Shown one piece after another: positions 6,949 through 23,935 of a stretch of 64,000 nucleotides of DNA (its first letter is position 1; each line of letters begins with the position of its first letter). The stretch covers positions 124,001-188,000 of the forward strand of contig JADFXG010000003.1 in NCBI GenBank assembly GCA_015233895.1. Reading direction: 5' to 3'. The notes beneath the pieces are model-generated. The model was not told the DNA's origin and searched no databases. It was given only the letters and a program-made list of their open reading frames with translations. A program made the translations under genes and the position numbers. The DNA comes from Nitrospirota bacterium. Lineage in GTDB: Bacteria; Nitrospirota; Thermodesulfovibrionia; Thermodesulfovibrionales; Magnetobacteriaceae.

Positions 6949-9230
6949 AACTCTTAATAGTGGAATCCCCTGCAAAGGCAAAAACGATAGAGAAAATACT
7001 TGGCAAGGACTTTACGGTAAAGGCATCGGTAGGACACATATTGGATTTACCTAAAAAGGTACTGGGTGTGGACAGAGAAAATGGCTATGAGCCAGAATAT
7101 GTGACAATTCCCGGCAAAGAGAAAATCACATTAGAACTCAGAGAGGCAGCCCAAAAAGCAGAGGAAGTTTACTTAGCTCCTGACCCTGACAGAGAGGGGG
7201 AGATAATAGCCTGGCACATATCCACAATAATATCAAAAAACAAAGGCAGACAGCCCAAAATGTTTAGGGTGACCTTTAATGAGATAACGGAAAGAGCGGT
7301 AAAAGAAGCGATGACCCGTCCATCAAACATAGACATGAACAAGGTCAATGCACAGCAGGCCAGACGTGTGCTGGACAGACTGGTCGGCTATGGCTTAAGC
7401 CCAATGCTGTGGAAAAAGATAAGCTTTGGACTAAGTGCCGGCAGGGTGCAGTCGGTAGCAGTCCGCCTGATTGTTGACAGGGAAAGAGAGATAGAAGCGT
7501 TTAAAAAAGAGGAGTACTGGTCATTAACCGCTTCGTTTCTTGCCGACATAGAGCCTTCATTTCCGGCAAAGCTGCATAAGTATGAAGGGAAAACTGTCAT
7601 TGAGAAATCATCAAAGGGTAACAAGTTTTTAATAACCAAAGAAGAGCAGGCAACTAAAATAAGAGAAAGTCTCTTAGTGGAGACTTACACACTAAAAAGT
7701 GTGGACAAAAAGGAAAAAAAGAGAATGCCTGCTCCGCCCTTTATAACCAGTACCCTTCAGCAGGAGGCAATTAAAAAACTTCGCTTTACTGCAAAGAAAA
7801 CAATGAGTATAGCTCAAAAGCTATACGAGGGAGTGGGTCTTGGCTCTGAGGGTTCAGTCGGGTTAATATCTTACATGCGTACCGATTCAGTCCGCAGTGC
7901 TCCAGAGGCGGTAAAGTGGGCAAGGGAGTATATAGAAAAGACCTTTGGCAAAGAATACATACCAACTAAGCCCCATACTTTTAAAACCAAGCGATCAGCG
8001 CAGGATGCCCATGAGGCTATAAGGCCAACATACGTTAAGTATCCGCCTGAGGCAGTAAAAAAATACCTTAAACCTGAGGAATACGCTCTGTATGAGCTAA
8101 TCTGGAAGCGCTTTATGGCAAGCCAGATGGCACAGGCAGAGCTTTTGCAGACCTCGTTTGACATATTTGACAGCGCTGAGAAGGCGCTCTTTAGAGCAAG
8201 CGGCACAATAATTAAATTTAAGGGATTTCTGGCTCTCTATTCAGAAGCACTTGAAAGTGATGACAGCGGTGAAACCTCAGTTTTACCAGCACTAAGCGGC
8301 GGCGAAAAACTTAAACTTCTTGAACTTAAACCGGAACAGCACTTCACTCAACCCCCACCCAGATACACCGAGGCCTCCCTTGTTAAGACTCTTGAGGAAA
8401 AAGGCGTAGGCAGACCCAGCACCTATGCCGCCATTTTATCCACCATAGGGGAAAGACAGTATGTTAACAAAGAGGAGGGAAAGTTTAAACCCACGGAGCT
8501 CGGAAAAATTGTAAATGATCTTTTGGTTAAGCGCTTTCCTGAGCTGATAGACATAACCTTTACGGCTAAAATGGAGGACGACCTTGATAAGGTAGAGGAG
8601 GGCAGTATTGCCTGGAATGCTCTCATTGGGGACTTCTATCCGCCATTTAAAAAGGAACTGGATGAGGCCACAGAAGCTAAGGACAGGGTTAAGCCTGAGG
8701 ATATTCCCACTGATACGGTGTGTGAGAAGTGCGGCAAGGTAATGGTAAAAAAATGGAGCAAAAACGGCTGGTTTCTTTCCTGCAGCGGATACCCGAAGTG
8801 TAAAAACGCAAAACCTCTTGATGACGAACAAAATGGAACAAGCGGCGCTCCTGTGGAACAGACCGATGAGATATGTGATAAGTGTTCATCTCCTATGATC
8901 ATAAAGACCGGCAAATTTGGCAGATTTATGGCCTGTTCCGCCTATCCTGACTGTAAGAACATAAAGCCAATCCCTACCGGGCTTAAGTGTCCTGAGGACG
9001 GGGGTGATCTTATAGAAAGAAAGTCTACAAAAGGAAAGTTCAGGGGACGAATTTTCTACAGTTGCAGCAACTATCCGAAATGCAAGTTTATCTCTAACTA
9101 CAAACCAGTTAATGAAAGCTGTCCGCACTGTAACGCAAAAACCATGTACGAAAAGAAAAACAAAGATGGAGATACAATTATTTTTTGCCAGAACAAAGAC
9201 TGTAAGCACAAAAGCGTGGTTGCTGACTGA
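6939..9230 (+). CDS. topA: DNA topoisomerase I
   Basis: Type IA topoisomerase that relaxes negatively supercoiled DNA by cutting one strand through a tyrosine phosphodiester. The N-terminal Toprim domain has VESPAKAKTIEKILG and the metal-binding APDPDREGEIIAWH. The catalytic tyrosine is about residue 312 in SYMRTDS, and GVGRPSTYA is also conserved. The C-terminal third holds topoisomerase zinc-ribbon units, beginning CEKCGKVMVKKW, CDKCSSPMIIKT and CPHCNAKTMYEK; one unit that begins CPEDGG lacks one of its first two cysteines. The length of 763 residues is normal. It is translationally linked to the preceding smg-like gene. Confidence 0.97.
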   Translation: MALKLLIVESPAKAKTIEKILGKDFTVKASVGHILDLPKKVLGVDRENGYEPEYVTIPGKEKITLELREAAQKAEEVYLAPDPDREGEIIAWHISTIISKNKGRQPKMFRVTFNEITERAVKEAMTRPSNIDMNKVNAQQARRVLDRLVGYGLSPMLWKKISFGLSAGRVQSVAVRLIVDREREIEAFKKEEYWSLTASFLADIEPSFPAKLHKYEGKTVIEKSSKGNKFLITKEEQATKIRESLLVETYTLKSVDKKEKKRMPAPPFITSTLQQEAIKKLRFTAKKTMSIAQKLYEGVGLGSEGSVGLISYMRTDSVRSAPEAVKWAREYIEKTFGKEYIPTKPHTFKTKRSAQDAHEAIRPTYVKYPPEAVKKYLKPEEYALYELIWKRFMASQMAQAELLQTSFDIFDSAEKALFRASGTIIKFKGFLALYSEALESDDSGETSVLPALSGGEKLKLLELKPEQHFTQPPPRYTEASLVKTLEEKGVGRPSTYAAILSTIGERQYVNKEEGKFKPTELGKIVNDLLVKRFPELIDITFTAKMEDDLDKVEEGSIAWNALIGDFYPPFKKELDEATEAKDRVKPEDIPTDTVCEKCGKVMVKKWSKNGWFLSCSGYPKCKNAKPLDDEQNGTSGAPVEQTDEICDKCSSPMIIKTGKFGRFMACSAYPDCKNIKPIPTGLKCPEDGGDLIERKSTKGKFRGRIFYSCSNYPKCKFISNYKPVNESCPHCNAKTMYEKKNKDGDTIIFCQNKDCKHKSVVAD

Positions 9231-9326
9231 TACCAACTCAGAGACCGTTGCAAAAGTAACAGTAAATGTTGAGGTAAACAAATAAGTTGACTGAAAGCAG
9301 AGATGTTTTATAGAATACACATAGAC

Positions 9327-9401
9327 AGGCGCATAGCTCAGTGGTAGAGCGCTACCTTGACACGGTAGAGGTCGGGGGTTCGATACCCCCTGTGCCTACC
9401 A
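9327..9401 (+). tRNA. tRNA-Val (anticodon GAC)
   Basis: A full cloverleaf can be drawn. The acceptor stem AGGCGCA pairs with TGTGCCT, including one G-T pair. The D-arm region is GCTCAGTGGTAGAGC. The anticodon stem CTACC/GGTAG closes the loop TTGACAC, with GAC at positions 34-36. The T-arm is GGGGGTTCGATACCCCC. The 3' CCA is encoded. It reads valine codons GUC and GUU and stands alone between topA and the AAA+ gene. Confidence 0.95.
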
Positions 9402-9428
9402 TTCCTATATCGGACTTCGGGTTAATCA

Positions 9429-9458
9429 TTGACTTTTTTCCCTGTAAGTATTTATAGT
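9429..9458 (+). promoter_or_regulatory. Sigma-70-type promoter
   Basis: TTGACT and TATAGT are separated by 18 bp, downstream of tRNA-Val. It would give a leader of roughly 105 bases before the AAA+ gene at 9570. Confidence 0.5.
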
Positions 9459-9521
9459 ACTAACTAAGTGATAGTGTTGTAGAAAGCTCAGTGTTGTTTT
9501 GGGGAGCAACATATGTAAAGG

Positions 9522-9537
9522 TGGCGTGTATATTGTG
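9522..9537 (+). promoter_or_regulatory. Possible sigma-54 promoter
   Basis: TGGCGT, five bases, then TTGTG approximates the -24/-12 consensus TGGCAC-N5-TTGC with correct spacing, 32 bases before the start at 9570. The -12 element has GT in place of GC, so this is weak. Since rpoN is in the window, it is worth testing. Confidence 0.3.
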
Positions 9538-9569
9538 TTAAATATTACAAGAAGAAAGGAGCATACAAT

Positions 9570-10634
9570 ATGGCGGCACAAAAAGATTTAAGAAATGTGT
9601 TAGTAAAGGTCAAACTGGGTGATAGCGAAACTATGTCTAAAATTACCAAAGACGTGTTGGCAGCATCTGAAAATGACGAGATTGTGGTTATCGAAGGGGA
9701 GGCAGGTACAGGAAAACGTTACATAGCAAAGCTCATCCATCGCCTGAGTAAAAGAGCAACCCAACCTTTTGTTAAAGTTGATCTAAGTTTGATTCCGGAA
9801 CACTTACTGGAAAGTGAATTGTTTGGATACGAAAAGGGAGCCATTGAAGGAGCAGAAAACGGAAAGCCCGGGTTTTTTGAGGCAGCCAACAATGGCACTC
9901 TGGTTTTAGATGAACTGCAATCTGTGTCGCGTCAACTGCAAACCAAACTGCTGCAGGTCATTAAGGACAGCAAAGTTACCCCTTTGGGAGCTAAACACCC
10001 CAAAGACATGGATATACGAATAATCGTAACAACAGATAAAAGCCTTGAGGAGCTTGTCAAACACGACTGTTTCAGTGCTGATTTATACAAAACGATCAAT
10101 GAGCATTTGATAATAATTCCGGCAATAAGAGACCACAGAGATGATATAAAATTCTTTGCCTACAGGTTTTTAGAGGAAATAACAGGTGAGCTGGAAAAAC
10201 AAATATACGGCTTTACTGATGAGGCGATTACGCTGCTTGGTTTTCACAATTGGCCCGGCAACTTAAGGGAAATAAAAAGTGTTATAAAAAGAGCTATATT
10301 GATCTGCAAGGGCAGCACCATAGAACATACCGACCTTGTATTTCTGCGCGCATATATAAAGGGCTATCGCCCTGCAGCAACAGGCAGACGCCGTGAAAGA
10401 ATACACAAAACTTTAAAGGATATTTCCAATAAGGCAACTGAGTTCTTTGAAAAAGATGCGATATGCCATGTTCTTAACATCACATCGGGTAACAAAAAGA
10501 AGGCTGCCAGCCTCCTGCAAGTGGACTACAAGACGCTTTTCAATAAAATCAGGGATTATGATCTGATTTACCCCAAAGAGCCGCTTACTCTGAGGCCGCC
10601 CAGACTGGACATGAGGGCTAAAAGAGTTTTCTAA
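9570..10634 (+). CDS. Degenerate sigma-54-activator-like AAA+ protein with Fis-type HTH
   Basis: The 354-residue protein has the AAA+ domain of NtrC-family enhancer-binding proteins and no receiver domain. Walker A is intact (GEAGTGK, residues 43-49) and Walker B reads LVLDE (111-115). The sigma-54-contacting loop, normally GAFTGA, is GAIEGA (90-95). The usual FREDLYYRL segment, which supplies the trans arginine fingers, reads FSADLYKTI (168-176), so both arginines are missing. A Fis-type helix-turn-helix is present near the C-terminus (NKKKAASLLQVDYKTLFNKI). It probably binds DNA and nucleotide but is unlikely to remodel sigma-54 holoenzyme in the normal way. It may act as a repressor, co-regulator or partner of the intact activator downstream. 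Confidence 0.8.
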   Translation: MAAQKDLRNVLVKVKLGDSETMSKITKDVLAASENDEIVVIEGEAGTGKRYIAKLIHRLSKRATQPFVKVDLSLIPEHLLESELFGYEKGAIEGAENGKPGFFEAANNGTLVLDELQSVSRQLQTKLLQVIKDSKVTPLGAKHPKDMDIRIIVTTDKSLEELVKHDCFSADLYKTINEHLIIIPAIRDHRDDIKFFAYRFLEEITGELEKQIYGFTDEAITLLGFHNWPGNLREIKSVIKRAILICKGSTIEHTDLVFLRAYIKGYRPAATGRRRERIHKTLKDISNKATEFFEKDAICHVLNITSGNKKKAASLLQVDYKTLFNKIRDYDLIYPKEPLTLRPPRLDMRAKRVF

Positions 10635-10793
10635 ACCATAGTAAATTGATGCGGATGTGGAGAGGGCGAGGCGCTCTACCTCATCATCTGTATTACCATT
10701 TTATAAACACAATAGCGTATAATTAATCATCAGGGATTTAAGCTATATAAGAAAAGCAGTAAAAACCCTTTAATTACGTAAAGGAGGCTGACC

Positions 10794-11576
10794 ATGTTCA
10801 ACGTTTCCACAGGAATGCTGGTACTAATGGCTGTTTTGTTTTTTTTCTGGAGTGCCATAAAAATACTAAATGAATACGAAAGAGGCGTTGTGTTCAGGCT
10901 TGGCAGGGTGATACCGTTAAAAGGCCCCGGACTTGTTATAATCCTGCCCATGATTGACAAGCTTGTAAGGGTCAGCCTGCGAACCGTGACTATGGATGTG
11001 CCGTCTCAGGACGTGATTACAAGAGACAACGTAACAGTTAAGGTCAATGCAGTTGTGTATTTCAAAGTAGTTGAGCCGATAAAGGCTATAACTGAAATAG
11101 AAAATTTCTATTTCGCAACAAGCCAGATAGCCCAAACAACCTTAAGAAGCACCCTTGGACAGAGCCAACTCGATGATCTTCTTTCCAAACGAGAGGAGAT
11201 AAACGCTCAACTTCAAAAGATAATAGATCTGCAAACAGAGCCGTGGGGAATTAAAGTGACCGCAGTTGAAACCAAAAATGTTGATTTGCCTGTAGAGATG
11301 CAGCGAGCAATAGCTAAGCAGGCTGAGGCTGAAAGAGAAAGACGCGCCAAGATTATACATGCCGAGGGTGAGCTTCAGGCTTCTTATAAACTGGCTGATG
11401 CCGCAAAGATTATTTCATCTGAATCCGGCACACTACAGTTAAGATACCTGCAAACACTGACTGAGATTTCGGCTGAGAAAAACTCAACCATAATCTTCCC
11501 GCTTCCCATTGAGCTTCTGACGCCTTTTCTAGATCGCTTCAAAAATAAGCCGGACCAGACAGTGAAAGACGCTTAA
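10794..11576 (+). CDS. Slipin / stomatin-like SPFH-band 7 protein
   Basis: A 260-residue membrane-anchored scaffold protein that multimerises in membrane microdomains. One N-terminal transmembrane segment (about residues 7-24) precedes the SPFH domain with [39 protein letters not shown] and [20 protein letters not shown] helical, alanine- and glutamate-rich segment follows ([20 protein letters not shown]). This is the standard slipin layout. A good AAAGGAGG ribosome site precedes the ATG. No NfeD-type partner is adjacent. The downstream sigma-54 regulator begins within about 30-170 bp and may be cotranscribed. Confidence 0.93.
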
Positions 11577-11605
11577 AATAGTGCTGTTATTCTAAAGGAA
11601 CGACA

Positions 11606-13018
11606 CTGGCGCAAACGAACCCAGACTTAACAGGCCTTTCTCTGCTAATCGTAAGTGGCAGCAAAGCTTCATTTAACGATATCCGGAAGAGATTTGAACA
11701 ATTCGGAGGAAAAGCTTTTGTAGCAACGGAGCCGGATGCTGCCCTTTATATGTCAATGAAGGAGCGTATTGACATAGTGCTGGCTGATTCAAAAACGCTT
11801 GGGAGTAACGTATCTGTTTTTATAGAAAAATGTAAGTCAACAAATCCTGCCGCTATAATTTATCTGACAATTGATAACTTACGGGGTGCTGCCTCATCTG
11901 TGCTGCCGCAAGGAGTTGAGGATTATCTGCATAACAATATAACCGGAATCAGGTTTGCGCAAATGACGGAGATGAGATTTGGCAGGGGGCAGCAAGGGGA
12001 AAGCAGCTCGCTGACACTGATGGATCCTCTGGTGTCGCGTTTAAGGCCGTATTTTCAGTTTCACTCAGAGGCCATGCGCCGGGCGCTTGTCAATCTGCCA
12101 GCTATCGCCCGTTCAGAGCAAACCGTGCTGATTTCCGGTGAAACAGGGACAGGCAAAGAGATGACAGCCCGCTCGATACACGTACTAAGTAAACGGTCAT
12201 CAGGCCCATTTGTAGCCGTTAACTGCGGAGCTATTCCGGAAACTCTGATAGAGGGTGAACTGTTTGGACATGAGAAAGGTGCTTTTACCGGTGCTTTCCG
12301 CACACGGAAGGGTAAGTTTGAAGCGGCTGCAAACGGCACCCTGTTTCTTGATGAAATCGGCGATATGCCTTTAGCGCTTCAGAGAAGACTGCTCAGGGTT
12401 TTAGAAGAGGGGCAAATTTACAGAGTAGGCGCTGAATCCCCCGTCTCTATAAACGCAAGAGTGATAGCTGCTACCGGCAGAGATTTAAAGCACTCAGTAC
12501 AAAACGGACTTTTCAGAGAAGACCTCTACTACAGACTCAACATTTTGCCAATACATCTGCCACCACTCAGAGAGCGCATTGAGGACATCCCATACCTTGC
12601 GATATATTTTCTGGGGCGTGCTATGACAGAACAAGGTATCCCTCCCCCGTACCCAGCCCTTTCCCCTGCCACTATTGATGTGCTTGAAAAGTATCCGTGG
12701 CGGGGTAATGTCAGAGAACTCAGAAACGTTATGACTCGTGTGGCAACTCTTATCCCAGGCGGAATTGAACAAGTGCTGCCCATTCACATAATCCCTCACC
12801 TTGAGGAAAACCTCATAAAATCGGCATTATCACTACAACCGGAAAAATCCGGCAGTAACGGAGTATTTATCCCTGTCGGCACACCGATGTCTGAAGCTCA
12901 TGATATGATAATTGCTGAAACTCTCCGTCACACAGGCGGTAACCGTACAAAAGCCGCCGAATTGCTAAAAATCGGACTCCGTACTCTCAGAAGGCGGCTA
13001 AACTGTCCTGAACGATAA
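11606..13018 (+). CDS. Sigma-54-dependent response regulator (NtrC family)
   Basis: The first ordinary start in frame is the ATG at 11750, but receiver-like sequence begins earlier (LLIVSGSKASFNDIRKRFEQ). The open frame runs back to a TAG at about 11579 with no ATG, GTG or TTG in between. A CTG at 11606 sits 5 bases after AAAGGA and is my preferred start. The receiver-like domain has IDIVLADSKTLGSN, in which the Asp could be the phosphorylation site, though the usual second acidic pair is not obvious. The AAA+ domain is complete: GETGTGKEMTARS, HEKGAFTGAFR, GTLFLDEIGDMP and FREDLYYRLNILP. A Fis-type HTH ends the protein. It should activate sigma-54 promoters on signal. No sensor kinase is adjacent. 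Confidence 0.85.
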   Translation: MAQTNPDLTGLSLLIVSGSKASFNDIRKRFEQFGGKAFVATEPDAALYMSMKERIDIVLADSKTLGSNVSVFIEKCKSTNPAAIIYLTIDNLRGAASSVLPQGVEDYLHNNITGIRFAQMTEMRFGRGQQGESSSLTLMDPLVSRLRPYFQFHSEAMRRALVNLPAIARSEQTVLISGETGTGKEMTARSIHVLSKRSSGPFVAVNCGAIPETLIEGELFGHEKGAFTGAFRTRKGKFEAAANGTLFLDEIGDMPLALQRRLLRVLEEGQIYRVGAESPVSINARVIAATGRDLKHSVQNGLFREDLYYRLNILPIHLPPLRERIEDIPYLAIYFLGRAMTEQGIPPPYPALSPATIDVLEKYPWRGNVRELRNVMTRVATLIPGGIEQVLPIHIIPHLEENLIKSALSLQPEKSGSNGVFIPVGTPMSEAHDMIIAETLRHTGGNRTKAAELLKIGLRTLRRRLNCPER

Positions 13019-13020
13019 TC

Positions 13021-13049
13021 TTTACAAAAACTCTGTGCAGTTGTAGAAT
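13021..13049 (+). promoter_or_regulatory. Promoter of the AT-rich four-gene cassette
   Basis: TTTACA and TAGAAT are 17 bp apart, beginning three bases after the regulator's stop codon. The expected start point is near 13056, only about 11 bases before the first cassette ATG, with AAGG at the very 5' end of the mRNA. This would let the cassette be transcribed independently of its neighbours. Confidence 0.5.
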
Positions 13050-13066
13050 ATTAATAAGGTTATAGA

Positions 13067-13711
13067 ATGGCAAATAAACAGAATATTAAAAAAAAATTAA
13101 AACCAGGAGATATTTTGCTTCTGTTGCTATACGTTGATGACTGTTCATCTATAAGAGGGCGAACAAGGCTTCAAAAAATGGTTTTTGTTTTTGAAGAGGA
13201 AATTTTGAAGCAAAATGGTTTTGACAAACTACTATCCCAAAATCACCAACAGTCCTTGTTTGACTTTAAACCTCATTATTATGGACCTTTTTCTGAGAAA
13301 GTTTTGACAAATATGGAATTTTTTGTAAACGTTGGCATGGTTGAAGCTAAATGTGATATTCAAGACGGAGATTTTGAAGAAGCTCTTGCCGGTATAGATG
13401 ATCAACAAATCCTAATGGATGATCTTAGGGAATTACCTGATGGGCTTGAAGATGATGAGGCATACGGAATTGAAGATGAATTTTGCATAGAACCTGAGTA
13501 TTTTCTAAGTGAGACTGGGAAGAAATATGTTAATGAGAAGCTCATTGTTTTTATCAGTGGAGAGCAGAAAAATGCCTTAACTATCCTAAAAAAGAATTTT
13601 AATAAAATTTCTTTAAACAATATTCTAAGATATGTTTATACTAAATATCCAAATATGTCGGAAGAATCATTAATTAAGGATACTGTGTTAGAGAAGCCAT
13701 GGCAATTCTAG
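13067..13711 (+). CDS. YwgA/SocA-like winged-helix protein
   Basis: This 214-residue protein has the GRTRLQKMVFVFEEE motif followed by FKPHYYGPFSEKVLTNMEFF and a late LSETGKKYV. That is the pattern of YwgA-like and Panacea/SocA-like proteins, a winged-helix group found next to toxins, nucleases and phage-defence genes. A stretch of about 60 residues (105-165) is very acidic. It is the first gene of a four-gene operon and overlaps the next by 13 bp. The region is much poorer in G+C than its flanks (13 G or C in bases 13561-13620). An antitoxin- or adaptor-like role is an inference from family and context. Confidence 0.65.
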   Translation: MANKQNIKKKLKPGDILLLLLYVDDCSSIRGRTRLQKMVFVFEEEILKQNGFDKLLSQNHQQSLFDFKPHYYGPFSEKVLTNMEFFVNVGMVEAKCDIQDGDFEEALAGIDDQQILMDDLRELPDGLEDDEAYGIEDEFCIEPEYFLSETGKKYVNEKLIVFISGEQKNALTILKKNFNKISLNNILRYVYTKYPNMSEESLIKDTVLEKPWQF

Positions 13712-14100
13712 AAAAAGAGCTTATAACCAGTTTTAAAGCGATATTTAATGGAAAAGATAATATGCATGAGGAGGTTGCTTTTGGTAATCGCTGCATTGAT
13801 ATGGTTCTGGTTAGAGATTCTGTAATAACAACAATCGAATTTAAAATAAATAACTGGCGTAAAGCATTAACTCAAATAGAAGACCATTTATTAGTTGCTG
13901 ATTTCTCCTATTTATGTATGCCGAAAAAAAGAATTTCAGAGGAGCTATTAACAATTCTAAGAAAAAATGGAATTGGCTTATGGCATTATGACTTTGAGGT
14001 TAATGAATTAATTGAAGTAGTAAAACCTGATAAATCCTCATACCAATTTGAATTCTATAAAAACGCTATGTTGGAAAAGCTATCCAAAAGGTCGAATTAG
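13699..14100 (+). CDS. Small PD-(D/E)xK nuclease-like protein
   Basis: The 133-residue protein shows the restriction-endonuclease-like core: Glu24/Glu25, then Asp34 in NRCIDMVLV, then Glu47-Phe-Lys49 in TTIEFKINNWRKAL, with Gln59 after it. The D-x12-ExK spacing and the hydrophobic strands around it fit the fold, and its small size suggests little beyond the catalytic core. Similar proteins in this family are nucleases or DNA-binding relatives. The start overlaps the end of the YwgA-like gene and its stop lies 3 bp before the next ATG, so the two are almost certainly translated from one mRNA. Substrate unknown. Confidence 0.65.
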   Translation: MAILEKELITSFKAIFNGKDNMHEEVAFGNRCIDMVLVRDSVITTIEFKINNWRKALTQIEDHLLVADFSYLCMPKKRISEELLTILRKNGIGLWHYDFEVNELIEVVKPDKSSYQFEFYKNAMLEKLSKRSN

Positions 14101-14103
14101 ATC

Positions 14104-15435
14104 ATGAAGGAGTCTCACTTTCTCAGATATGGGACATCTTCTGAACAAAAATATATGGCCAGTTATCAACACACTTATGATGGAATAGCAATAAATGGGA
14201 ATATGTTAGCCCATATTTCAAAGAGCATATCTCTTTTTGTCCACAAGGATATAGGAAAAGAATTTTTTATAGACCCAATGACTCATTCTTTTCAACATGA
14301 AACAGAAAAAATATCATCAGCTTCAGGTCGGATAAAGTCGTCTATCAAAAAACTTATAGAAATTTATGGAAATCCGTTAAAATTAATATTGGATGAGTTC
14401 CGTCCAATTACTGCAACCGATTTTAACACTAACAATATTCCTAAATTTGTAGCCACCGTGCTGGGATTCCAAAAAGACCATATAAGACGAAGCTTAGATG
14501 AGGAATATAGTGATTATATCGACTATTTAGAAATTTCCAAAGAGCCTATCTTTCTAATTGCACCTTACTTTTATATGCAATCAGATAGAACATTTGATGA
14601 TTGGTTTAGCTTAAACAGTAGAATGATTAACGAAAGTATAAAATTAAAGGCAGAATATAAAAAGGATATTTTTGCTGAACTCGTTATTGATAAAAAACTA
14701 CTATGTGACGAGGATAAGATAAATAAAATACTTAAAACCTATTCTGATTCAAAGATAGATGGTTTACTATACTGGATCAATGGCTTTGATGAGACTCAGG
14801 CAACTGTAGATGAGCTATCGGCAGTCAAAGATTTTGTTGTAAAATACAAACGTAGTAATCCAAATAAAAAAATTATTTCTCTTTACGGTGGTTATTTTTC
14901 TGAATTGTTAATGGGGATATCTAACGCACTTGATGGTGTTGTTCACGGTTTAGAGTATGGCGAATCACGAGAGGTAGTTCCTGTAGGTGGTGGTATTCCA
15001 ATATCAAAATATTATTTCCCGGACATAAAAAAACGCATGCCTGAACTAAGAATGTCTAAAATACTATTAGTTCTCAAAATTGATACCCCTGTTAAATTTC
15101 ATAAACAGATTTGCGATTGCAAGAAATGTAAAGAAACAATCGTAAAAGATGTTCTTCCTGATTTTAACAGATATTTTAAGGCTAAACCTAAAATTATTAA
15201 GTTTAAAAAAACAGGAAACACAAGAGAAATAGATTATCCTGAGAGAGAAAGTAAAGAGCTTTGCTTATTTCACTATCTGGAGGTTAAAAATAAGGAATTT
15301 AAATATATAAAAGAGCATGGAATATCAGACATAGCTAATGAGTTAACCAAAGTGCATGAAAAGTACAAAGAGCATTTAAACGAAATGGAGATAGGGCATT
15401 TAGAGCGTTGGGCAAAAGTTCTTAGTGATGGCTAA
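14104..15435 (+). CDS. Uncharacterised protein with TGT-like zinc motif
   Basis: A 443-residue protein I do not recognise as a named family. It alternates predicted strands and helices in a way that suggests a TIM barrel: LKLILDEF, PIFLIAPYFYM, DIFAELVID, KIDGLLYWING, KIISLYGGYF and LDGVVHGLEYGE. Near the C-terminus Cys337, Cys339 and Cys342 form CDCKKC, the CxCxxC pattern that with a later His binds zinc in tRNA-guanine transglycosylases; His390 in CLFHYLE could be the fourth ligand. TGT-like enzymes exchange a guanine for a 7-deazaguanine in tRNA, or in DNA in Dpd systems. The spacing to the His is longer than in classical TGT and no active-site match is clear. The gene overlaps the SIR2 gene by 8 bp. 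Confidence 0.5.
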   Translation: MKESHFLRYGTSSEQKYMASYQHTYDGIAINGNMLAHISKSISLFVHKDIGKEFFIDPMTHSFQHETEKISSASGRIKSSIKKLIEIYGNPLKLILDEFRPITATDFNTNNIPKFVATVLGFQKDHIRRSLDEEYSDYIDYLEISKEPIFLIAPYFYMQSDRTFDDWFSLNSRMINESIKLKAEYKKDIFAELVIDKKLLCDEDKINKILKTYSDSKIDGLLYWINGFDETQATVDELSAVKDFVVKYKRSNPNKKIISLYGGYFSELLMGISNALDGVVHGLEYGESREVVPVGGGIPISKYYFPDIKKRMPELRMSKILLVLKIDTPVKFHKQICDCKKCKETIVKDVLPDFNRYFKAKPKIIKFKKTGNTREIDYPERESKELCLFHYLEVKNKEFKYIKEHGISDIANELTKVHEKYKEHLNEMEIGHLERWAKVLSDG

Positions 15436-16486
15436 AAAAACAGTTTTTATTCTTGGGGCGGGTTTTTCATATGATGCTGGAATTCCACTTCAGGCGGCAC
15501 TTTTAAAGGAAGCATTAACCATTACTCCACCTGTATTTACATATAATAACCCTGAAGCAATTTCCTTTATGGAGTATCAGAAAAAATTAAAGGATTTTAT
15601 CAATAACTTGTTTGGTTCATTAGATAATGTAGCTTTAGAAGATATTTTTACAATACTTGATAAAAGTGTTATAGGAAAAGAACGATTTAAAGAATATTCG
15701 TGGAAAGAACTCTATGAGTACAGAGGTTATTTAGTAAATCTAATCCTTCAGGTACTTACGATAAAACTAAAAGATATTACTAATTCATCAGAAAAACCGT
15801 ATAAAAAATTTGCAGAAAAAGTAATTGAAATAAGGGAAAAAGCAGGGCAGAAAACAGACTCACTTGGAATTATTTCATTAAATTGGGACACATTACTTGA
15901 GTTATCTCTTAATAAAGCTCTTACTGATTCTAAAGATAAGAAATGCCGTATTGATTATTGTGCCTATACTCATCACAGAGACAACACTGAAGTCTCTCAT
16001 ATCAATTTAAAATCTTTGGGTTTTTATAATATTAAAGTGTTGAAATTGCACGGCTCCTTAAACTGGCTTTATTGTAGTAATTGCGGACGATTGTATGTAG
16101 ATGATGGAAATATTGGTATTGAAAAAATAGAATGTAATTACTGCAAATCTTATACGGAAAAATTATATGAAGAGCCTCTTATAATTACCCCAACAATGAT
16201 AAAAGAACTGCATAATCTTCATATTAAAAATATTTGGCAAAATGCCTTTATAGAAATACAAGAGGCGACTGATATTTATTTTATAGGATATTCACTTCCT
16301 TACGCCGATTTCGAGTTTAAGTATATTTTGAAAAAAGCTATTGATAAAAAAAGCAAAATAACTGTTGTTCTGAGTAAAAATGACGAAACAAACGGAACCA
16401 ACAAAAGATATCAAGAGTTCCTTGGTAATAGTGTGAAACTATATAATGGCGGATTCTCTGACTGGATAAGTAATAATAATATTTAG
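15428..16486 (+). CDS. SIR2-family protein with zinc ribbon
   Basis: A 352-residue NAD-binding protein. It starts with the nucleotide loop FILGAGFSYDAGIP, has Asn152-Trp-Asp154 in ISLNWDTLLE, and His208 in KLHGSLNW at the place of the sirtuin catalytic histidine. Cys216, Cys219, Cys236 and Cys239 (CSNC and CNYC) form a zinc ribbon, and IGYSLPYADFEFKYIL closes the fold. In phage-defence SIR2 proteins (Thoeris ThsA, DSR, SIR2-HerA, SPARSA) the equivalent Asn and His destroy NAD+ to abort infection. Whether this one is an NADase or a deacylase is open. The ATG at 15428 is preferred; a GTG lies directly before it. It is the last gene of the cassette, and codon use is AT-rich (17 G or C in bases 15661-15720). 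Confidence 0.8.
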   Translation: MAKKTVFILGAGFSYDAGIPLQAALLKEALTITPPVFTYNNPEAISFMEYQKKLKDFINNLFGSLDNVALEDIFTILDKSVIGKERFKEYSWKELYEYRGYLVNLILQVLTIKLKDITNSSEKPYKKFAEKVIEIREKAGQKTDSLGIISLNWDTLLELSLNKALTDSKDKKCRIDYCAYTHHRDNTEVSHINLKSLGFYNIKVLKLHGSLNWLYCSNCGRLYVDDGNIGIEKIECNYCKSYTEKLYEEPLIITPTMIKELHNLHIKNIWQNAFIEIQEATDIYFIGYSLPYADFEFKYILKKAIDKKSKITVVLSKNDETNGTNKRYQEFLGNSVKLYNGGFSDWISNNNI

Positions 16487-16492
16487 AGCTTT

Positions 16493-16539
16493 AGGGGAGG
16501 GGTGAGGCACCCCCGCCGTTATGGGCAGCGCCTTCCCCT
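16493..16539. terminator. GC-rich hairpin between convergent genes
   Basis: An inner GGGGTG/CACCCC stem is nested in an outer AGGGGAGG/CCTTCCCCT pairing with one bulge. It sits between the ends of the SIR2 gene and the lipoprotein gene, where a two-way terminator would be expected. There is no strong T-tract, so the role is tentative. Confidence 0.4.
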
Positions 16540-16550
16540 TACTTATTCCT

Positions 16551-17177
16551 TTATCTCTCAAACTTAACATCTTCAGTAACAATCGTAAACTTATACCCGC
16601 CTACAGTTGCAGTGATACGGTTCGGGTACCATACACCCCCAAGCCACTTTACATCTCCATAGGCAATGTGCAGAATGCCGCCTCTGGGTAAGTATATAAA
16701 TTGTTCAATTGGCATCAGAGATTCACTATCTAAAACCATTTGTTGGCGGGGTTGTTTGATTTTAAGGTATCTGCCCTCTGTTGTGATATTATTTACGTTA
16801 TTAATCCACCAGAACAGTCCGTTTTTAATACATAGCGAGATGAGTTGCTCCTCTTCGGGTTTTAACTTCGGCTGACTGTAAAACACTCCGCCACGCTCCC
16901 GGAACTCGCCAACCGGTATGCCAAGCGTATAGAGCTTAACTTCATACTCGTTTGGAGAGAGTTTCATAGAGGCCATCCCGGACATGTACGCATCGTGCAT
17001 CTGCATGGAAATGTCGGCAGTACCCTTTATCTGACGGATTGCTCTCAGCCGGCTGATAAATTCATCGAATGATATTTTTTCGTAATTCTCTTGTACTGGA
17101 ACATACTGAGTACATGAAAACAACATGACAGTTAAGATGACAAAAATAAGTGATTTAATAATTGATAGCGGCTTCAA
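16551..17177 (-). CDS. Outer-membrane-type lipoprotein, LolB/DUF4292-like
   Basis: The 208-residue protein begins with a lipoprotein signal ending LFSC (cysteine about residue 22), so it is lipidated. The body, with TADISMQMHDAYMSGMASMK, LYTLGIPVGEF and later beta-rich segments, resembles the LolA/LolB-like fold of DUF4292 lipoproteins, which handle lipoproteins or lipids at the outer membrane. The start is a TTG at 17177 inside the end of radA (23-bp overlap) with GGAGG close upstream; no other start would keep the signal sequence. Translation is probably coupled to radA. A specific LolB role is not proven. Confidence 0.65.
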   Translation of the reverse strand: MKPLSIIKSLIFVILTVMLFSCTQYVPVQENYEKISFDEFISRLRAIRQIKGTADISMQMHDAYMSGMASMKLSPNEYEVKLYTLGIPVGEFRERGGVFYSQPKLKPEEEQLISLCIKNGLFWWINNVNNITTEGRYLKIKQPRQQMVLDSESLMPIEQFIYLPRGGILHIAYGDVKWLGGVWYPNRITATVGGYKFTIVTEDVKFER

Positions 17178-18525
17178 TTGCCTCCTCTATGTTTTTAACC
17201 CCGGTGATTTTAATGTCCGGCTTAAAAGTAAGCCGCTGCAAGGTGGAATCAGGAATAATCGCCTCCTTAAAGCCAATCTTAGTGCCTTCCTTAATTCGTC
17301 CCTCAGCCTGTGACACTCCCCGTATCTCTCCGGATAGTCCCACCTCACCAAACACGAAAAGAGTCTCCCTGACGGGTTTTTCCTTAAATGAAGAGACAAT
17401 CGCCGTGATGATACCCAAATCAAAAGCCGGCTCGTTTATCTTAAGTCCGCCGACTACGTTAAGAAACACATCCATTCCGCCAAGATGCACCCCGCCCACC
17501 TTTTCAAGCACGGCAATTAGAAGATTAACCCGGTTGGTTTCAACCCCTATGGCGGTTCTTCTTGGCATAGCAGTGTTGGAATGTGAAACCAGCGCCTGAA
17601 GCTCTACCATAATCGGGCGGGTTCCCTCTATAGTAGAAACAACGGCGGTGCCGGATGCCCCCTCAGGGCGCTCCGAAAGAAACAGCTCGGATGGATTTGT
17701 TATTTCTACCAGTCCCAAATCCCGCATCTCAAACACCCCGATCTCATTTGTCGAGCCAAAGCGGTTTTTCACAGCCCGCAGGATTCTGTAAGGATTGCCC
17801 CTGTCTCCTTCGAAATATAAAACCGTATCCACAATGTGTTCAAGAGTGCGTGGACCTGCTATAGCGCCGTCTTTGGTTACATGCCCAATTAAAAAAATTG
17901 ATGTCATGGAATTCTTTGCTAAAAACATGAGCTTAAGCGCACACTCCCTCACCTGAGTGACAGAGCCCGGAGCTGAGGGCGCATCCTGTGTAAACATGGT
18001 TTGAATTGAATCAATGATTACAACTGCGGGCTTTAACGATTTTATTTGCTCAGTGATACTCTCAAGACAAGTCTCAGAAAGGACGTTTATTTCAGGATTG
18101 TCAACATTCAGTCTGCCTGCGCGAATTTTTATCTGCTTCATGGACTCCTCGCCTGAGACGTAGAGGGAGATGTTTTTCATGGTAGCATTGGTTTTATAAA
18201 GGGAGGCCAGCATTTGAAGCACAATGGTTGACTTACCAATTCCAGGGTCTCCGCCAATTAAAATCAAAGAGCCTGCCACAATGCCTCCGCCAAGCACACG
18301 GTTAAGCTCCTCTATGCCGGTAGAGAGCCTGTCTTCAGCGTTTAGAGGGATGTCACTAAGAGACATTGCCTCAGAGCTGCCTGGGCGTGCCATCCCTTTT
18401 TTAACCTGCACCTCCTGCTCTTCAGTAAAACTGTTCCAGCTACCGCAGTCCGGGCACTTTCCAACCCACTTGGGTGAGCTGAACCCGCACGATTGGCACT
18501 GAAATATGGTTTTTGTCTTAGACAT
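17155..18525 (-). CDS. radA: DNA repair protein RadA (Sms)
   Basis: RadA is a RecA-like ATPase that drives branch migration of recombination intermediates. The N-terminal zinc finger is CQSCGFSSPKWVGKCPDCGS. The ATPase has Walker A GGDPGIGKSTIV and the diagnostic KNRFGSTNEIGVF motif. The C-terminal Lon-protease-like domain, containing GGLKINEPAFDLGI and FGEVGLSGEIRGV, is complete. The length of 456 residues is typical. The ATG at 18525 follows GGGCAAT. The lipoprotein gene overlaps its end. Confidence 0.97.
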   Translation of the reverse strand: MSKTKTIFQCQSCGFSSPKWVGKCPDCGSWNSFTEEQEVQVKKGMARPGSSEAMSLSDIPLNAEDRLSTGIEELNRVLGGGIVAGSLILIGGDPGIGKSTIVLQMLASLYKTNATMKNISLYVSGEESMKQIKIRAGRLNVDNPEINVLSETCLESITEQIKSLKPAVVIIDSIQTMFTQDAPSAPGSVTQVRECALKLMFLAKNSMTSIFLIGHVTKDGAIAGPRTLEHIVDTVLYFEGDRGNPYRILRAVKNRFGSTNEIGVFEMRDLGLVEITNPSELFLSERPEGASGTAVVSTIEGTRPIMVELQALVSHSNTAMPRRTAIGVETNRVNLLIAVLEKVGGVHLGGMDVFLNVVGGLKINEPAFDLGIITAIVSSFKEKPVRETLFVFGEVGLSGEIRGVSQAEGRIKEGTKIGFKEAIIPDSTLQRLTFKPDIKITGVKNIEEAIEAAINY

Positions 18526-18554
18526 ATTGCCCTATCAGTAAGCTCTGCAAAAAA

Positions 18555-18634
18555 ACTGGATTCCTGCCTCCGCAGGAATGACAGAAAAAACCATCTCCTC
18601 CTCTGTCATTCCCGCCTCCGAGCGGGAATCCAGT
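18555..18634. repeat. REP-like inverted repeat pair
   Basis: A 30-bp left arm (18555-18584) and a 32-bp right arm (18603-18634) are near-perfect inverted copies, starting ACTGGATTC and ending GAATCCAGT. Each arm contains its own smaller palindrome (TTCCTGC/GCAGGAA and TTCCCGC/GCGGGAA). Sequences of this kind (TCATTCCCGC...GCGGGAATCC) are dispersed between genes in many bacteria. It lies between the 3' end of thiD and the 5' end of radA, and could stabilise or terminate the thi mRNA. Confidence 0.8.
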
Positions 18635-18694
18635 CCCTTTTTATACATTTTTAGCTGACAGAAAACCATCAACCTGAGTAATTTCATAAGTATT

Positions 18695-19462
18695 TTATAC
18701 ATTTAAAATTGCCATCCCGCCTCCGGGATAAATTGCCCGTGTATCTATCGCATTTGTGACAAATGCTTTTGCAAGCCGGGCACTTTCAAGTGCTGCTATA
18801 CCTTTTGCAAGATTTGCCGACACTGCCGCCGAATACAGACACCCTGTGCCGTGATATGTCCCCGGCTTTAGAGGGGTCTCCATCCTTATAAATTCCGCTC
18901 CGCCATAAAAAGTATCCGTAGCACTTTTAAGACCTTGTCCGCCTGTTATTATAACGTTCCTGACTCCAAACTCTCTTAACAGCCTGGCTGCAACGTCTAT
19001 ATCGGCTTCTGTTTTTATGTCCATTCCTGAATAGAGAGCAGCCTCACTGATATTTGGAGTAAAGCACTCACAAAGCGGCAGTAGTTTTTGTTTGACTGCC
19101 TCCGGAACTCCGGCTTCTGTCATCGTTTTGCCTGAGGTAGATACCGTTACCGGATCAATAACGAGATTTTTAAGATTATATTTTCTAATGTAGTGGTCAA
19201 GAATTTCAACAATGTCAGCGGTTGGCAAAATTCCGGTTTTAACGGCATCCGGAGTTAAATCGGAAAGAAGGACTGAAAGTTGCCGCTCGAAAATTTCAGG
19301 GCTCACAGCATAAACATCGCTAACCCCTTGTGTGTTTTGGGCGGTTATCGAGGATGCTACCGAAAGCCCATAAACCCCATGAGCGTGGAAGGCTTTTAAA
19401 TCCGCCTGAAGTCCGGCTCCGCCTGTAGGGTCGAAGCCGGCAACGGTTAACGCTGTGGTCAT
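18695..19462 (-). CDS. thiD: Hydroxymethylpyrimidine/phosphomethylpyrimidine kinase
   Basis: It phosphorylates HMP and then HMP-P to give HMP pyrophosphate for thiamine assembly. The ribokinase-type fold is seen in VAGFDPTGGAGLQADLKAFH at the start and in the ATP/anion-hole segment GTYHGTGCLYSAAVSANLAKG at the end. The 255-residue length is normal. It is the last gene of the thi operon, overlapping thiC by 4 bp (ATGA), which implies coupled translation. Confidence 0.96.
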   Translation of the reverse strand: MTTALTVAGFDPTGGAGLQADLKAFHAHGVYGLSVASSITAQNTQGVSDVYAVSPEIFERQLSVLLSDLTPDAVKTGILPTADIVEILDHYIRKYNLKNLVIDPVTVSTSGKTMTEAGVPEAVKQKLLPLCECFTPNISEAALYSGMDIKTEADIDVAARLLREFGVRNVIITGGQGLKSATDTFYGGAEFIRMETPLKPGTYHGTGCLYSAAVSANLAKGIAALESARLAKAFVTNAIDTRAIYPGGGMAILNV

Positions 19463-20757
19463 TCTGCCGCTTTGCCTGTGGGGTGAAGCGCGCGCTCAAC
19501 GGTTCTGATAGCGCAAAAATCGGCACACATGCTACAAACCTCAGATAGTGCGGGGGGGAGGTGTGCCCTCATGTTTCTGACCTTATCGGGATTAAAAGAC
19601 ATAGAAATCTGCCCCTCCCAGTCAAGGTTTTTTCTGTACCGCGCCATCTTTTTATCCCTCTCTATAGCAGAGGGAATTCCCTTTGCTATGTCAGCCGCAT
19701 GTGCTGCTATTTTTGAAGCTACAACACCTTCTATGACATCATTGAGTTCCGGAAGCCGGACGTGCTCTGAGGGCGTTACGTAGCAGAGAAAATCTGCCCC
19801 GGCAGCTCCCGCAATTGCTCCGCCTATGGCTGAGGTTATGTGGTCATACCCCATTCCAACATCTGTGACAAGAGGCCCTAGCACATAAAACGGGGCGCCG
19901 CTACACAGTGATTTCTGAAGTTTTATATTCATTTCTACCTGGTTAATCGGGACGTGGCCCGGCCCCTCGATTATCACCTGCACACCGTGCTCAAGAGCGA
20001 TTTTCTGTAGCTTTCCTAAAGTAATAAGCTCCTCCACCTGCGCTCTGTCCGTAGCGTCAGCCAGACAGCCGGGTCTTAGCCCATCCCCTAAGCTAAGTGT
20101 CATGTCGTACTTTTTTGATATTTCAAGCAGCCTGTCATATTGCTCAAAGAGGGGGTTTTCCCGGTCGTTTACAATCATCCATTCAAGCATTATGGAGCCT
20201 CCGCGGCTTACAATATCAAGAATCCTGCCCTGTGCTTTCAGATGCTCAACTGTATCTCTGGTTAGCCCGGCATGTACCGTTACAAAGTCAACCCCTTCTT
20301 TAGCATGAACCTCTATGATTTCAAACAAATCATCGGCAGTCATCTTTATGATGCTGCCGTACTTTTCAACAGCCATGACGGCAGTCTCGTATATGGGTAC
20401 AGTGCCGATAGGCACGGGGGATTTTTCGGTCATCATCCGTCTCAGGTCTCTTATTGGCCCTCCGGTTGATAAATCCATGATGGCATCAGAGCCGTATTTA
20501 ACTGATGCCTCAAGCTTAAGCATCTCCTCACCCACCGAGGCATGGTCTTTTGATGTGCCGATGTTTGCGTTTATCTTTGTGGTAAGCCCTCTGCCAATGC
20601 CCGTGGGTTTGATTTTATGCAGAATGTTTTTTGTGATGACGGTGAAACCTGCTGCAATGTCTTCTGAGATTTTTTCTGCCGATACTGATTCACTTTGCGC
20701 TACAGCCTTTACATCATCTGTTATAATGCCCTTTTTAGCCGACTCTATAGTTGTCAT
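19459..20757 (-). CDS. thiC: Phosphomethylpyrimidine synthase
   Basis: ThiC is a radical SAM enzyme that turns aminoimidazole ribotide into HMP phosphate. Its unusual C-terminal iron-sulfur motif CSMCADFC (CxxCxxxxC) is present. Other typical blocks are GTVPIYETA, FVTVHAGLTRDTVEHLK, EGPGHVPINQVEMNIKLQK and CYVTPSEHVRLPELNDVIEG. At 432 residues it is the shorter bacterial/archaeal-type form lacking the long N-terminal extension of E. coli ThiC. It overlaps thiE and thiD by 4 bp each. Confidence 0.97.
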   Translation of the reverse strand: MTTIESAKKGIITDDVKAVAQSESVSAEKISEDIAAGFTVITKNILHKIKPTGIGRGLTTKINANIGTSKDHASVGEEMLKLEASVKYGSDAIMDLSTGGPIRDLRRMMTEKSPVPIGTVPIYETAVMAVEKYGSIIKMTADDLFEIIEVHAKEGVDFVTVHAGLTRDTVEHLKAQGRILDIVSRGGSIMLEWMIVNDRENPLFEQYDRLLEISKKYDMTLSLGDGLRPGCLADATDRAQVEELITLGKLQKIALEHGVQVIIEGPGHVPINQVEMNIKLQKSLCSGAPFYVLGPLVTDVGMGYDHITSAIGGAIAGAAGADFLCYVTPSEHVRLPELNDVIEGVVASKIAAHAADIAKGIPSAIERDKKMARYRKNLDWEGQISMSFNPDKVRNMRAHLPPALSEVCSMCADFCAIRTVERALHPTGKAAE

Positions 20758-21374
20758 TTTAGTAACTCCAGGTATTTTTTAGTTTCGCCAAAAACATCAG
20801 TTGACGACAGAATTCCGGAAATCACGGCTACGCCGTCCGCCCCGGCCTCTAAGACCTCTGTTAAATTATCCGGCTTGATGCCACCTATGGCAAAGACCGG
20901 TATCTTTAATTTCTTTTTGACCTTTGTGATGGTTTGCACTCCTATTGGGGGCCCAAACTGAAGTTTGGACTTTGTTTCGTAAATTGGCCCAAGTGTTATA
21001 AAATCAGCGCCCTTGCTTTGTGCTAAAATCGCCTCCTCAAGAGAATGTGTGGACTGAGCTATGATGAGCCTGTCTCCGGCTATCTTTCTTGCCGCTGCAA
21101 CGGGAATACTGTTCTGGGTCAGGTGCACTCCGTCAGCCTCCACTGCAAGGGCAACATCAACCCGGTCATTTATAAACAGTTTGGCTTTGTAGGTTTTGGT
21201 AAGCTCCCTCATTTTTTCAGCCAGCACCATTATTTCTTTGATATTTAGATCTTTTTCCCTTAGCTGAACAGCGCCTGCTCCAGCCGCAAGTGCTGCCTCA
21301 AGCACATCACAACAGGGCTTGTTAACAAGAGATCTGTCACTTATAAGATAGAGCTTAAAATCAATTCCTGCCAT
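20754..21374 (-). CDS. thiE: Thiamine-phosphate synthase
   Basis: It joins HMP pyrophosphate with the thiazole phosphate to make thiamine phosphate. The 206-residue TIM barrel shows AGAGAVQLREKDL, LFINDRVDVALAVEADGVHL, GADFITLGPIYETKSK and the phosphate-binding IGGIKPDNLTEVLEAGADGV. The frame is complete. It lies between thiG (21 bp upstream) and thiC (4-bp overlap) in the riboswitch-controlled operon. Confidence 0.95.
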   Translation of the reverse strand: MAGIDFKLYLISDRSLVNKPCCDVLEAALAAGAGAVQLREKDLNIKEIMVLAEKMRELTKTYKAKLFINDRVDVALAVEADGVHLTQNSIPVAAARKIAGDRLIIAQSTHSLEEAILAQSKGADFITLGPIYETKSKLQFGPPIGVQTITKVKKKLKIPVFAIGGIKPDNLTEVLEAGADGVAVISGILSSTDVFGETKKYLELLK

Positions 21375-21395
21375 GTTCTTTCTCCTCCGGTTTTA

Positions 21396-22169
21396 CTACA
21401 GCATTCCTTCAATGGGGCTGCTTGCCGATGCGTAGAGTTTCCGGGGTATGCGCCCGGACTTGTAGGCATATCGTCCGGCAATTACTGCGTGTTTCATAGC
21501 CTCAGCCATCATAATAGGATCCTTTGCGCCGGCAATAGCCGTGTTAATGAGCACAGCGTCACACCCAAGCTCCATTGCCTCTGCCGCATCCGAGGCTGTC
21601 CCCACACCGGCATCTACCACAATGGGCAAGGTTTTTATAAGCTCAAGGATGATTTTGATATTATAGGGGTTTCTTATGCCAAGCCCTGAGCCAATGGGAG
21701 CGCCAAGGGGCATAACCGCTGCGGCTCCTGCATCAACAAGCCTTTGAGCCGTGATGGGGTCATCGCTTGAGTATGGGAGCACGATAAACCCTTCTTTAGC
21801 TAAAATCTCTGTGGCCTTAAGCAGACCGCAGACATCTGGAAACAGGGTTTTTTCGTCCCCTATGACCTCAAGTTTTACCATATCAGACACTCCTGCCTCA
21901 CGCCCAAGGCGAGCGTATCTAAGGGCATCCTCGACATTATAACATCCTGCGGTGTTAGGCAAGATTTTGTACTTCTTTGGGTCTATGTAGTCAAGCAGGT
22001 TTGTACTCTTTCTGTCAGTTATATTAACTCTTCTTACTGCAACAGTTACAATGTCAGCTCCTGATGCCTCAATAGCACGGGCTGTCTCATCAAAATCCTT
22101 ATACTTACCAGTGCCTACCCAAAGGCGGGATTTTATTTCTATCGAGGAAACTATTAGTTTATCGTCCAT
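21396..22169 (-). CDS. thiG: Thiazole synthase
   Basis: ThiG builds the thiazole phosphate ring from deoxyxylulose phosphate, dehydroglycine and sulfur delivered by ThiS. Recognisable blocks are [50 protein letters not shown] and [21 protein letters not shown]. The length of 257 residues is standard. It follows thiS by about 48 bp. No thiH, thiO or thiF is in the operon, so the dehydroglycine source and the ThiS-adenylating enzyme must be encoded elsewhere. Confidence 0.97.
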
Positions 22170-22217
22170 GCGCTCTCCTTATCTTTATAGTATATGAGTA
22201 ATGTCAGCATTTTAAAA

Positions 22218-22418
22218 TTATCCACCCCCTACAAAGTTAACAATTTCCACCGTATCGCCGTCCTGAATTTGAGTTAGAAGGAGGTCGGCTTTTTTTATCA
22301 CTTTCAGATTTAATTCAACTGCAACCCTATTCATTTGAATATCTAACTCATCAAGGAGCTCTTTAACCGTTTTAGCCCCCTTTACAGCGTAATCTTCAGA
22401 GTTTAATTTAATTATCAT
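22218..22418 (-). CDS. thiS: Sulfur carrier protein ThiS
   Basis: This small ubiquitin-like sulfur carrier for thiazole synthesis ends in the required Gly-Gly (VEIVNFVGGG). I start it at the ATG at 22418 (MIIKLNSEDYAVKG), giving 66 residues, the usual size. A longer frame beginning at 22463 would place its start inside the riboswitch terminator hairpin and adds a tail unlike ThiS. It is the first gene of the thi operon. Confidence 0.9.
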   Translation of the reverse strand: MIIKLNSEDYAVKGAKTVKELLDELDIQMNRVAVELNLKVIKKADLLLTQIQDGDTVEIVNFVGGG

Positions 22419-22450
22419 AGTTAAATTTCGTTTACGGGCTATTAAAAAGC

Positions 22451-22485
22451 AAAAAAACCGCATTCCTATACTTGAAGGAATACGG
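22451..22485 (-). terminator. Intrinsic terminator of the TPP riboswitch
   Basis: Reading on the minus strand, CCGTATTCCT pairs with AGGAATGCGG over ten pairs (one G-T), with an 8-base loop, followed by seven Ts. It lies between the riboswitch and thiS, so it is the expression platform: TPP binding should favour termination before the thi genes. Confidence 0.88.
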
Positions 22486-22492
22486 CCTTTAG

Positions 22493-22598
22493 CCCTTTTC
22501 CCTCCGTCGGTATAACCCGTATCAGGTTCAAGGGGTCACCTTATAATAAGGTTTCTCAGGCTTAACACCGATTTCGTGTTTTTAGCCTCCCCCAAGGG
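22493..22598 (-). promoter_or_regulatory. TPP (THI-box) riboswitch
   Basis: On the minus strand the conserved TPP aptamer elements appear in order: GGGGGAGGC, a short hairpin (AACAC/GTGTT), GCCTGAGAAA, a variable stem, then ACCCCTTGAACCTGATACGG and GTTATACCGACGGAGGGAA. An outer CCCTT/AAGGG pairing can form P1. It is followed 7 bases later by an intrinsic terminator and then by thiS. Confidence 0.95.
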
Positions 22599-22615
22599 TA
22601 CTGCTTAATTGGATG

Positions 22616-23932: not shown

Positions 23933-23935
23933 ATG

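Follow-up and report, generated by a model that had tools for sequence, protein, structure and literature searches.

The window, a stretch of 64,000 nucleotides of Nitrospirota DNA, encodes a 443-aa protein that probably folds like a tRNA-guanine transglycosylase (TGT), as judged from two predicted structures; membership of the TGT family itself is not proven. Its gene belongs to an operon of four co-directional genes, overlapping or abutting (Panacea-like, nuclease, TGT-like, and SIR2), and the co-conservation of this gene set on plasmids of archaea and bacteria suggests an undescribed immune-type module. By a narrow preference, we predict an immune-type role for the operon. The features on which the argument draws are the following, in window coordinates.

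13067 to 13711, forward strand: Panacea/SocA-like protein of 214 aa, likely an antitoxin or regulator (PF13274 13.3 bits, cut-off 25.7; PADLOC PDC-M19A E 1.3e-8)
13699 to 14100, forward strand: PD-(D/E)XK-type nuclease of 133 aa, named from its motif, ID...IEFK...Q, with no Pfam match
14104 to 15435, forward strand: TGT-like protein of 443 aa with an ATG start, from reading of the open reading frame, family alignment, and predicted structures
14272 to 14274, forward strand: codon of Asp57, counterpart of the strand end of TGT Asp102, present in 7 of 7 aligned proteins, the structural register being approximate
15112 to 15129, forward strand: CDCKKC, putative zinc ligands Cys337, Cys339, and Cys342, with the triad found in 5 of 7 aligned proteins
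15271 to 15273, forward strand: codon of His390, putative fourth zinc ligand, present in 7 of 7 aligned proteins
15428 to 16486, forward strand: SIR2-like protein of 352 aa, predicted as a likely NADase effector (PADLOC SIR2 2e-12; a GTG start at 15425 is possible)

The operon, its relatives, and its mobility

The four genes are separated, in order, by -13, +3, and -11 bases, the last counted from the GTG codon at 15425 that could also serve as start; the overlap between the TGT-like and SIR2 genes is 8 or 11 bases, according to which start is used. The Panacea-like protein aligns with the module Panaceas of Haloarcula and Arthrobacter, a GPFS motif being common to five runs, and three of these module relatives match PF13274 at E 1.8e-4, 6e-4, and 0.019. 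In the nuclease, E-x-K and Q are kept in all seven aligned proteins, and the first Asp occupies the same column in the window protein and four relatives, lying earlier, displaced by an insert, in the other two; the name PD-(D/E)XK follows the definition of that motif, D...ExK...Q. The SIR2-like protein matches PF13289 at E 2.2e-4 and 21.8 bits, below the cut-off of 24.5. Its GAGFS, NWD, and HGS motifs, presumably the residues of the SIR2 NAD site, are intact and align with those of the Haloarcula sinaiiensis SIR2, and it also carries a zinc ribbon. The defence context and SIR2 neighbour claimed by the first-pass annotation are thus borne out by the SIR2 gene itself, by the nuclease and Panacea-like genes, by low GC, and by relatives on plasmids. 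Two genes of sigma-54-activator type lie upstream (9570 to 10634 and 11750 to 13018), the second ending 48 bases before the cassette.

Relatives of the TGT-like protein were reached from several leads. Searching plasmids by tblastn at E up to 0.01 gave two records, Arthrobacter sp. AK-1 and Haloarcula marismortui, and the latter, used as lead, gave H. sinaiiensis and Haloarcula sp. JP-L23. Searches of Nitrospirota genomes gave a near-identical copy (genome G003), a further relative (G181), and broken pieces (G401). With the nuclease as lead we found Kocuria rosea, where a C-terminal stretch of the adjoining kinase protein, when aligned, is 17-19% identical to the family; this member was admitted from its shared motifs and G181-like layout, not from a database E-value. 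The resulting family of seven sequences omits the G003 copy, which is near-identical to the window and interrupted by Ns, and the broken G401 copy. The six loci other than the window are arranged as follows.

H. sinaiiensis plasmid: Panacea, nuclease, TGT-like, and a different SIR2 99 bases on
Haloarcula sp. JP-L23 plasmid: Panacea, nuclease, TGT-like, and a 405-aa zinc-ribbon protein 103 bases on
H. marismortui plasmid: Panacea, nuclease, TGT-like, with nothing similar after them and no effector seen
Arthrobacter plasmid: Panacea, 3-TM predicted membrane protein, nuclease, TGT-like, with overlaps of 1-4 bases
G181: TGT-like domain fused to a kinase, the fusion gene overlapping that of the nuclease; upstream, a GmrSD-type gene and a Panacea gene (PF13274 3e-24)
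Kocuria rosea plasmid (L018): 4581-5309, forward strand, unannotated nuclease open reading frame, converging on 5316-7406, reverse strand, Ser/Thr kinase-TGT-like fusion

The nuclease gene adjoins the TGT-like gene at all seven loci. A Panacea-like gene lies within the run at five of them, the two kinase-fusion loci (G181 and Kocuria) having no abutting Panacea gene, and the three-gene core of Panacea, nuclease, and TGT-like genes recurs on three Haloarcula plasmids and one Arthrobacter plasmid. The fourth gene or fusion partner, on the other hand, varies: SIR2 in two of the seven, a Ser/Thr kinase fusion in two, a membrane protein in one, and no recognised effector in two. Given the 99-base gap before it, the H. 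sinaiiensis SIR2 might be a separate gene. Panacea-type genes also occur on other plasmids (nine records); in the four of these that were inspected, neither a nuclease nor a TGT-like gene is annotated beside the Panacea gene, and TGT-like queries of plasmids matched none of these other records. The Panacea gene is therefore not specific to the module. Around the relatives several further genes were seen. At the G181 locus (L017 2398-5056) a canonical Panacea gene and then a GmrSD_N gene, seemingly split into two open reading frames, stand just upstream of the kinase-TGT fusion; an Eco57I-type DNA methyltransferase lies directly upstream of the JP-L23 module (L012 706-4971); and the broken TGT-like pieces of G401 (L016 4747-5300) sit beside open reading frames resembling parts of a DNA methyltransferase.

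The operon was apparently acquired horizontally. The cassette has a GC content of 31.3% (0.313) against 44.3% and 46.8% in its flanks, it is absent from two of three other genomes of the same genus, and plasmids carry all but one of the six other loci of the family. The TGT-like gene is rare in Nitrospirota genomes (4/394, 3/395, 3/229, 2/295, and 3/199, in sets that overlap and that mostly contain the genome of the window itself or the near copy), and a search of genome contigs returned only the G003 copy. Viral contigs, searched with the window protein, with three of its relatives, and with an alignment, gave no relative, and phages gave none. Compared with 12148-17349 of the window, the G003 copy (L002) has 40 differences between 12148 and 12887, two differing sites in the readable part up to 17277, with an N gap inside the TGT-like gene, and diverges again beyond; this pattern reflects either mosaic ancestry or a mixed assembly.

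Predicted fold, zinc motif, and catalytic residues

Sequence comparison did not place the protein. Pfam, NCBIfam, and PADLOC gave no identifying match for the window protein, and no TGT model of Pfam or NCBIfam (PF01702, queuine tRNA-ribosyltransferase) matched it at E up to 1; six aligned family members did not match Pfam TGT at E up to 10, and a search of the sequences of solved structures, with the single sequence and with a profile, returned no convincing match. Matches of TGT-like proteins to PHROG and Pfam were set aside, none being better than E 0.005. We also compared the family of seven, as a profile, with 30 TGTs and 13 DpdA-type proteins. With hhalign, P was 0.085 against TGT and 0.15-0.48 against phage DpdA, values to be read beside a positive control that failed as well: DpdA against TGT, known relatives, gave P 0.03-0.4, and subgroups of DpdA matched one another at P 1e-39. 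Since the DpdA-TGT control failed, the profile test lacks power. No dpd partner gene, a DpdB-like ATPase included, was recognised on reading the open reading frames at 8000-24000, five of which were also scanned for families. The likeness to DpdA raised in the first-pass annotation thus drew no backing from the profile comparison, whose control failed too, or from the operon, which has no dpd partners. DpdA-like proteins annotated as hypothetical were seen on plasmids of Paenibacillus and Acinetobacter (L061 2572-3633 and L062 2866-3618).

The predicted structures point to TGT. We modelled the window protein (model 1) and the TGT-like domain of G181 (model 2) with AlphaFold, from input alignments of four rows each that held the window and certain locus sequences only. 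Both models are of low confidence (mean pLDDT 46.5 and pTM 0.52 for model 1; 49.3 and 0.44 for model 2) and, as they share input sequences, are not fully independent. Each was compared by VIA-align with Foldseek's 1000 best PDB chains, and of these the best 50 were listed. TGTs fill the best 50 of 1000 for model 1, with Z from 9.2 to 8.1 at a pLDDT of only 46.5, and likewise for model 2, with Z from 9.7 to 9.1 at a pLDDT of only 49.3. The top match of model 1 is 9hn7_A (Z 9.2, rmsd 5.3, 234 aligned, model 53-443) and that of model 2 is 5n6f (Z 9.7, rmsd 3.2, 157 aligned, model 55-255 on Zymomonas mobilis 94-280). Foldseek alone, by contrast, gave no match with E below 0.001 for either model and ranked other TIM barrels first: the matches of model 1 are weak barrel matches with triosephosphate isomerase and KDO8P synthase at the head, and those of model 2 begin with adenosine deaminase, human TGT being second (probability 1.00, E 0.042). 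DpdA structures are not among the matches listed by VIA-align for either model, which is no evidence of a difference from DpdA. The structural comparison that had been proposed with TGT and DpdA divides, TGT occupying every listed VIA-align row and other barrels heading Foldseek; the claim of a TGT-like enzyme is partly supported, a TGT-like fold being likely but no Pfam or NCBIfam match being seen. Because both models are weak, we regard the TGT-only VIA-align lists as a strong hint rather than proof. That the protein is some other TIM barrel with a coincidental Cys-x-Cys-x2-Cys is unlikely: the lack of any TGT model matched by sequence, the low confidence of both models, and first Foldseek matches such as triosephosphate isomerase and adenosine deaminase would fit, but the listed VIA-align rows (best 50 of 1000) are all TGT, though the Foldseek lists are headed mostly by other barrels, and the Cys3His motif is placed after the barrel, as in TGT.

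The features first read in the 443-aa frame were confirmed: Cys337, Cys339, Cys342, and His390 are exactly where they had been placed, and predicted secondary structure, strands alternating with helices, agrees with the TIM-barrel-like strand pattern. When the protein was shuffled, CxCxxC arose in 10 of 20000 shuffles. From the last Cys to the next His (His390) there are 48 residues (x47 spacing), indeed longer than in TGT, if the +26 of the same genome's canonical TGT is the measure. Across the family the distance is +16, +28, +30, +30, and +48, and, being so variable, it makes the long spacing of the window look like a lineage-specific insertion. Two observations count against a strict zinc requirement: the triad is missing in the Arthrobacter and Kocuria relatives, and in the near-identical G003 copy a single substitution, 15119 G>T, turns Cys339 into Phe. 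Seven residues are invariant in the seven-sequence alignment (Asp57, Pro58, Gly271, Gly278, Tyr304, His390, and Trp436), and Glu287 and Tyr303 are kept in six of the seven.

According to the available part of PMC6165067, TGT uses Asp102 and Asp280 (Z. mobilis numbering) and a Cys3His zinc site, and in the non-catalytic QTRT2 Cys and Glu replace the catalytic Asp pair. Of this pair the window family shows only one half. With few gaps in the pairing that sets 55 against 94, residue 65 of model 2 (Asp57 in the window protein) comes close to Z. mobilis 102-104, so that the first Asp has an invariant counterpart at the matching strand. The aligned stretch of model 2 ends at Z. mobilis 280, where the family has Gly278 and varied residues; in a register taken from low-confidence models, none of the columns of the seven aligned proteins offers a conserved acid for the Asp280 nucleophile, the nearest being Glu287 (six of seven). 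Thus, either the nucleophile has moved or the TGT-like protein performs no base exchange. Queuosine and 7-deazaguanine genes had also been suggested as a clue, and the genome does carry canonical TGT, QueC, and QueD-type (PTPS/QueD-type) genes; as these are expected for tRNA queuosine, their presence is uninformative on the TGT-like protein. Elsewhere in the window, at 51584-51679, a 342-aa frame gives a weak match to the QueC profile (first 32 positions, 22.2 bits) and probably encodes another PP-loop ATPase.

A possible immune-type module and its alternatives

The TGT relatives known from genome conflict either insert bases, as enzymes of Dpd-type systems and phages, or are predicted to make marks in BRC (BREX-related capture) loci. 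The window family resembles bacterial TGT and eukaryotic QTRT1-QTRT2 (PF01702) in its predicted barrel and strand order, in an Asp shared by all seven proteins at the end of the corresponding strand and, in five of the seven aligned proteins, in the Cys-x-Cys-x2-Cys...His after the barrel; it departs from them in lacking a detectable profile match and a nucleophile Asp in register, in a His placed 16-48 residues after the last Cys rather than 26, in the absence of the triad from two relatives, and in its immune-type operon. QTRT2 is a precedent for a TGT-fold subunit without the catalytic pair (PMC6165067, in the part available). TGT domains in defence are already published for Dpd and BRC systems (PMC12839542, likewise in part). 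Like DpdA of Dpd systems and phages, the protein would be related to TGT and placed in a setting of genome conflict; unlike Dpd, the window operon combines Panacea, nuclease, and SIR2 with no dpd partners, and shows no profile similarity to DpdA (the control failing too). In BRC loci with TGT and GNAT a TGT-domain protein is similarly recruited to a defence operon, yet those loci, as far as the available text of PMC12839542 describes them, are HerA/FtsK-PglZ-centred, and none of these genes adjoins the window protein. The PanAT toxin-antitoxin systems offer a third likeness, an operon headed by a Panacea-type gene, and the PanAT survey names H. marismortui WP_049938427.1, the Panacea of the present module (PMC8832971, in part); the window layout differs from a two-gene pair in having four genes, with a nuclease, a TGT-like gene, and an exchangeable effector.

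As a tentative account of the whole, we propose that the protein is the TGT-fold recognition core of a horizontally moving, Panacea-controlled, effector-swapping defence module. The TGT-like subunit would bind tRNA or DNA through a barrel with one catalytic-type Asp and no clear nucleophile and, together with the small nuclease, would sense a disturbed base or the nucleic acid of an invader; sensing would release the effector held by Panacea, here SIR2, and the freed SIR2 would deplete NAD+, causing the infected cell to stop. The steps beyond the gene arrangement and the fold are those that we infer. Panacea neutralises many unrelated toxins (PMC8832971, in part), and NAD+ depletion in defence by SIR2 proteins is described in the DSR2 papers, in the portions available. 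A DNA- or tRNA-modifying role for the TGT-like protein is possible.

Such a role is carried furthest by a scheme of active base exchange, in which the TGT-like protein would mark host DNA or tRNA as self, as in a Dpd-like restriction-modification system, the nuclease would cut unmarked DNA, and SIR2 would serve as back-up. We hold this to be improbable. The TGT-like fold and first Asp, the nuclease partner at all seven loci, the QueC and QueD-type genes for 7-deazaguanine precursors, and the place of TGT homologues at the centre of Dpd systems and within BRC loci (PMC12839542, in part) all suit it; against them stand a nucleophile register without a conserved acid, an operon without a DpdB-like ATPase or other dpd gene, and a negative, if powerless, DpdA profile comparison. 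We give similarly little weight to a toxin-antitoxin system, with the TGT-like protein or the nuclease as toxin (acting, e.g., by tRNA base removal or exchange), Panacea as its neutraliser, and SIR2 as passenger. The wide range of toxins that Panacea neutralises and the naming of the H. marismortui Panacea (PMC8832971, in part), as well as the Panacea-like gene in five of seven runs, speak for it, but a core conserved together beside a fourth gene that changes is closer to a defence system than to a pair, neither kinase-fusion locus has an abutting Panacea gene, and the genes for SIR2 and the TGT-like protein overlap.

Our literature search on TGT with SIR2 or defence and on Panacea with SIR2, with most subscription journals outside its scope, returned no account of the module. 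The recognition-core reading might then describe, though here we are more doubtful still, a new immune class: a TGT-fold sensor, probably without base-exchange chemistry, joined to a PD-(D/E)XK nuclease, a Panacea hold, and interchangeable killers (SIR2, membrane protein, or kinase), in archaea and bacteria alike. The compact four-gene operon makes it directly testable and, if true, it would be a new route by which the recognition of a base or a tRNA leads to cell suicide.
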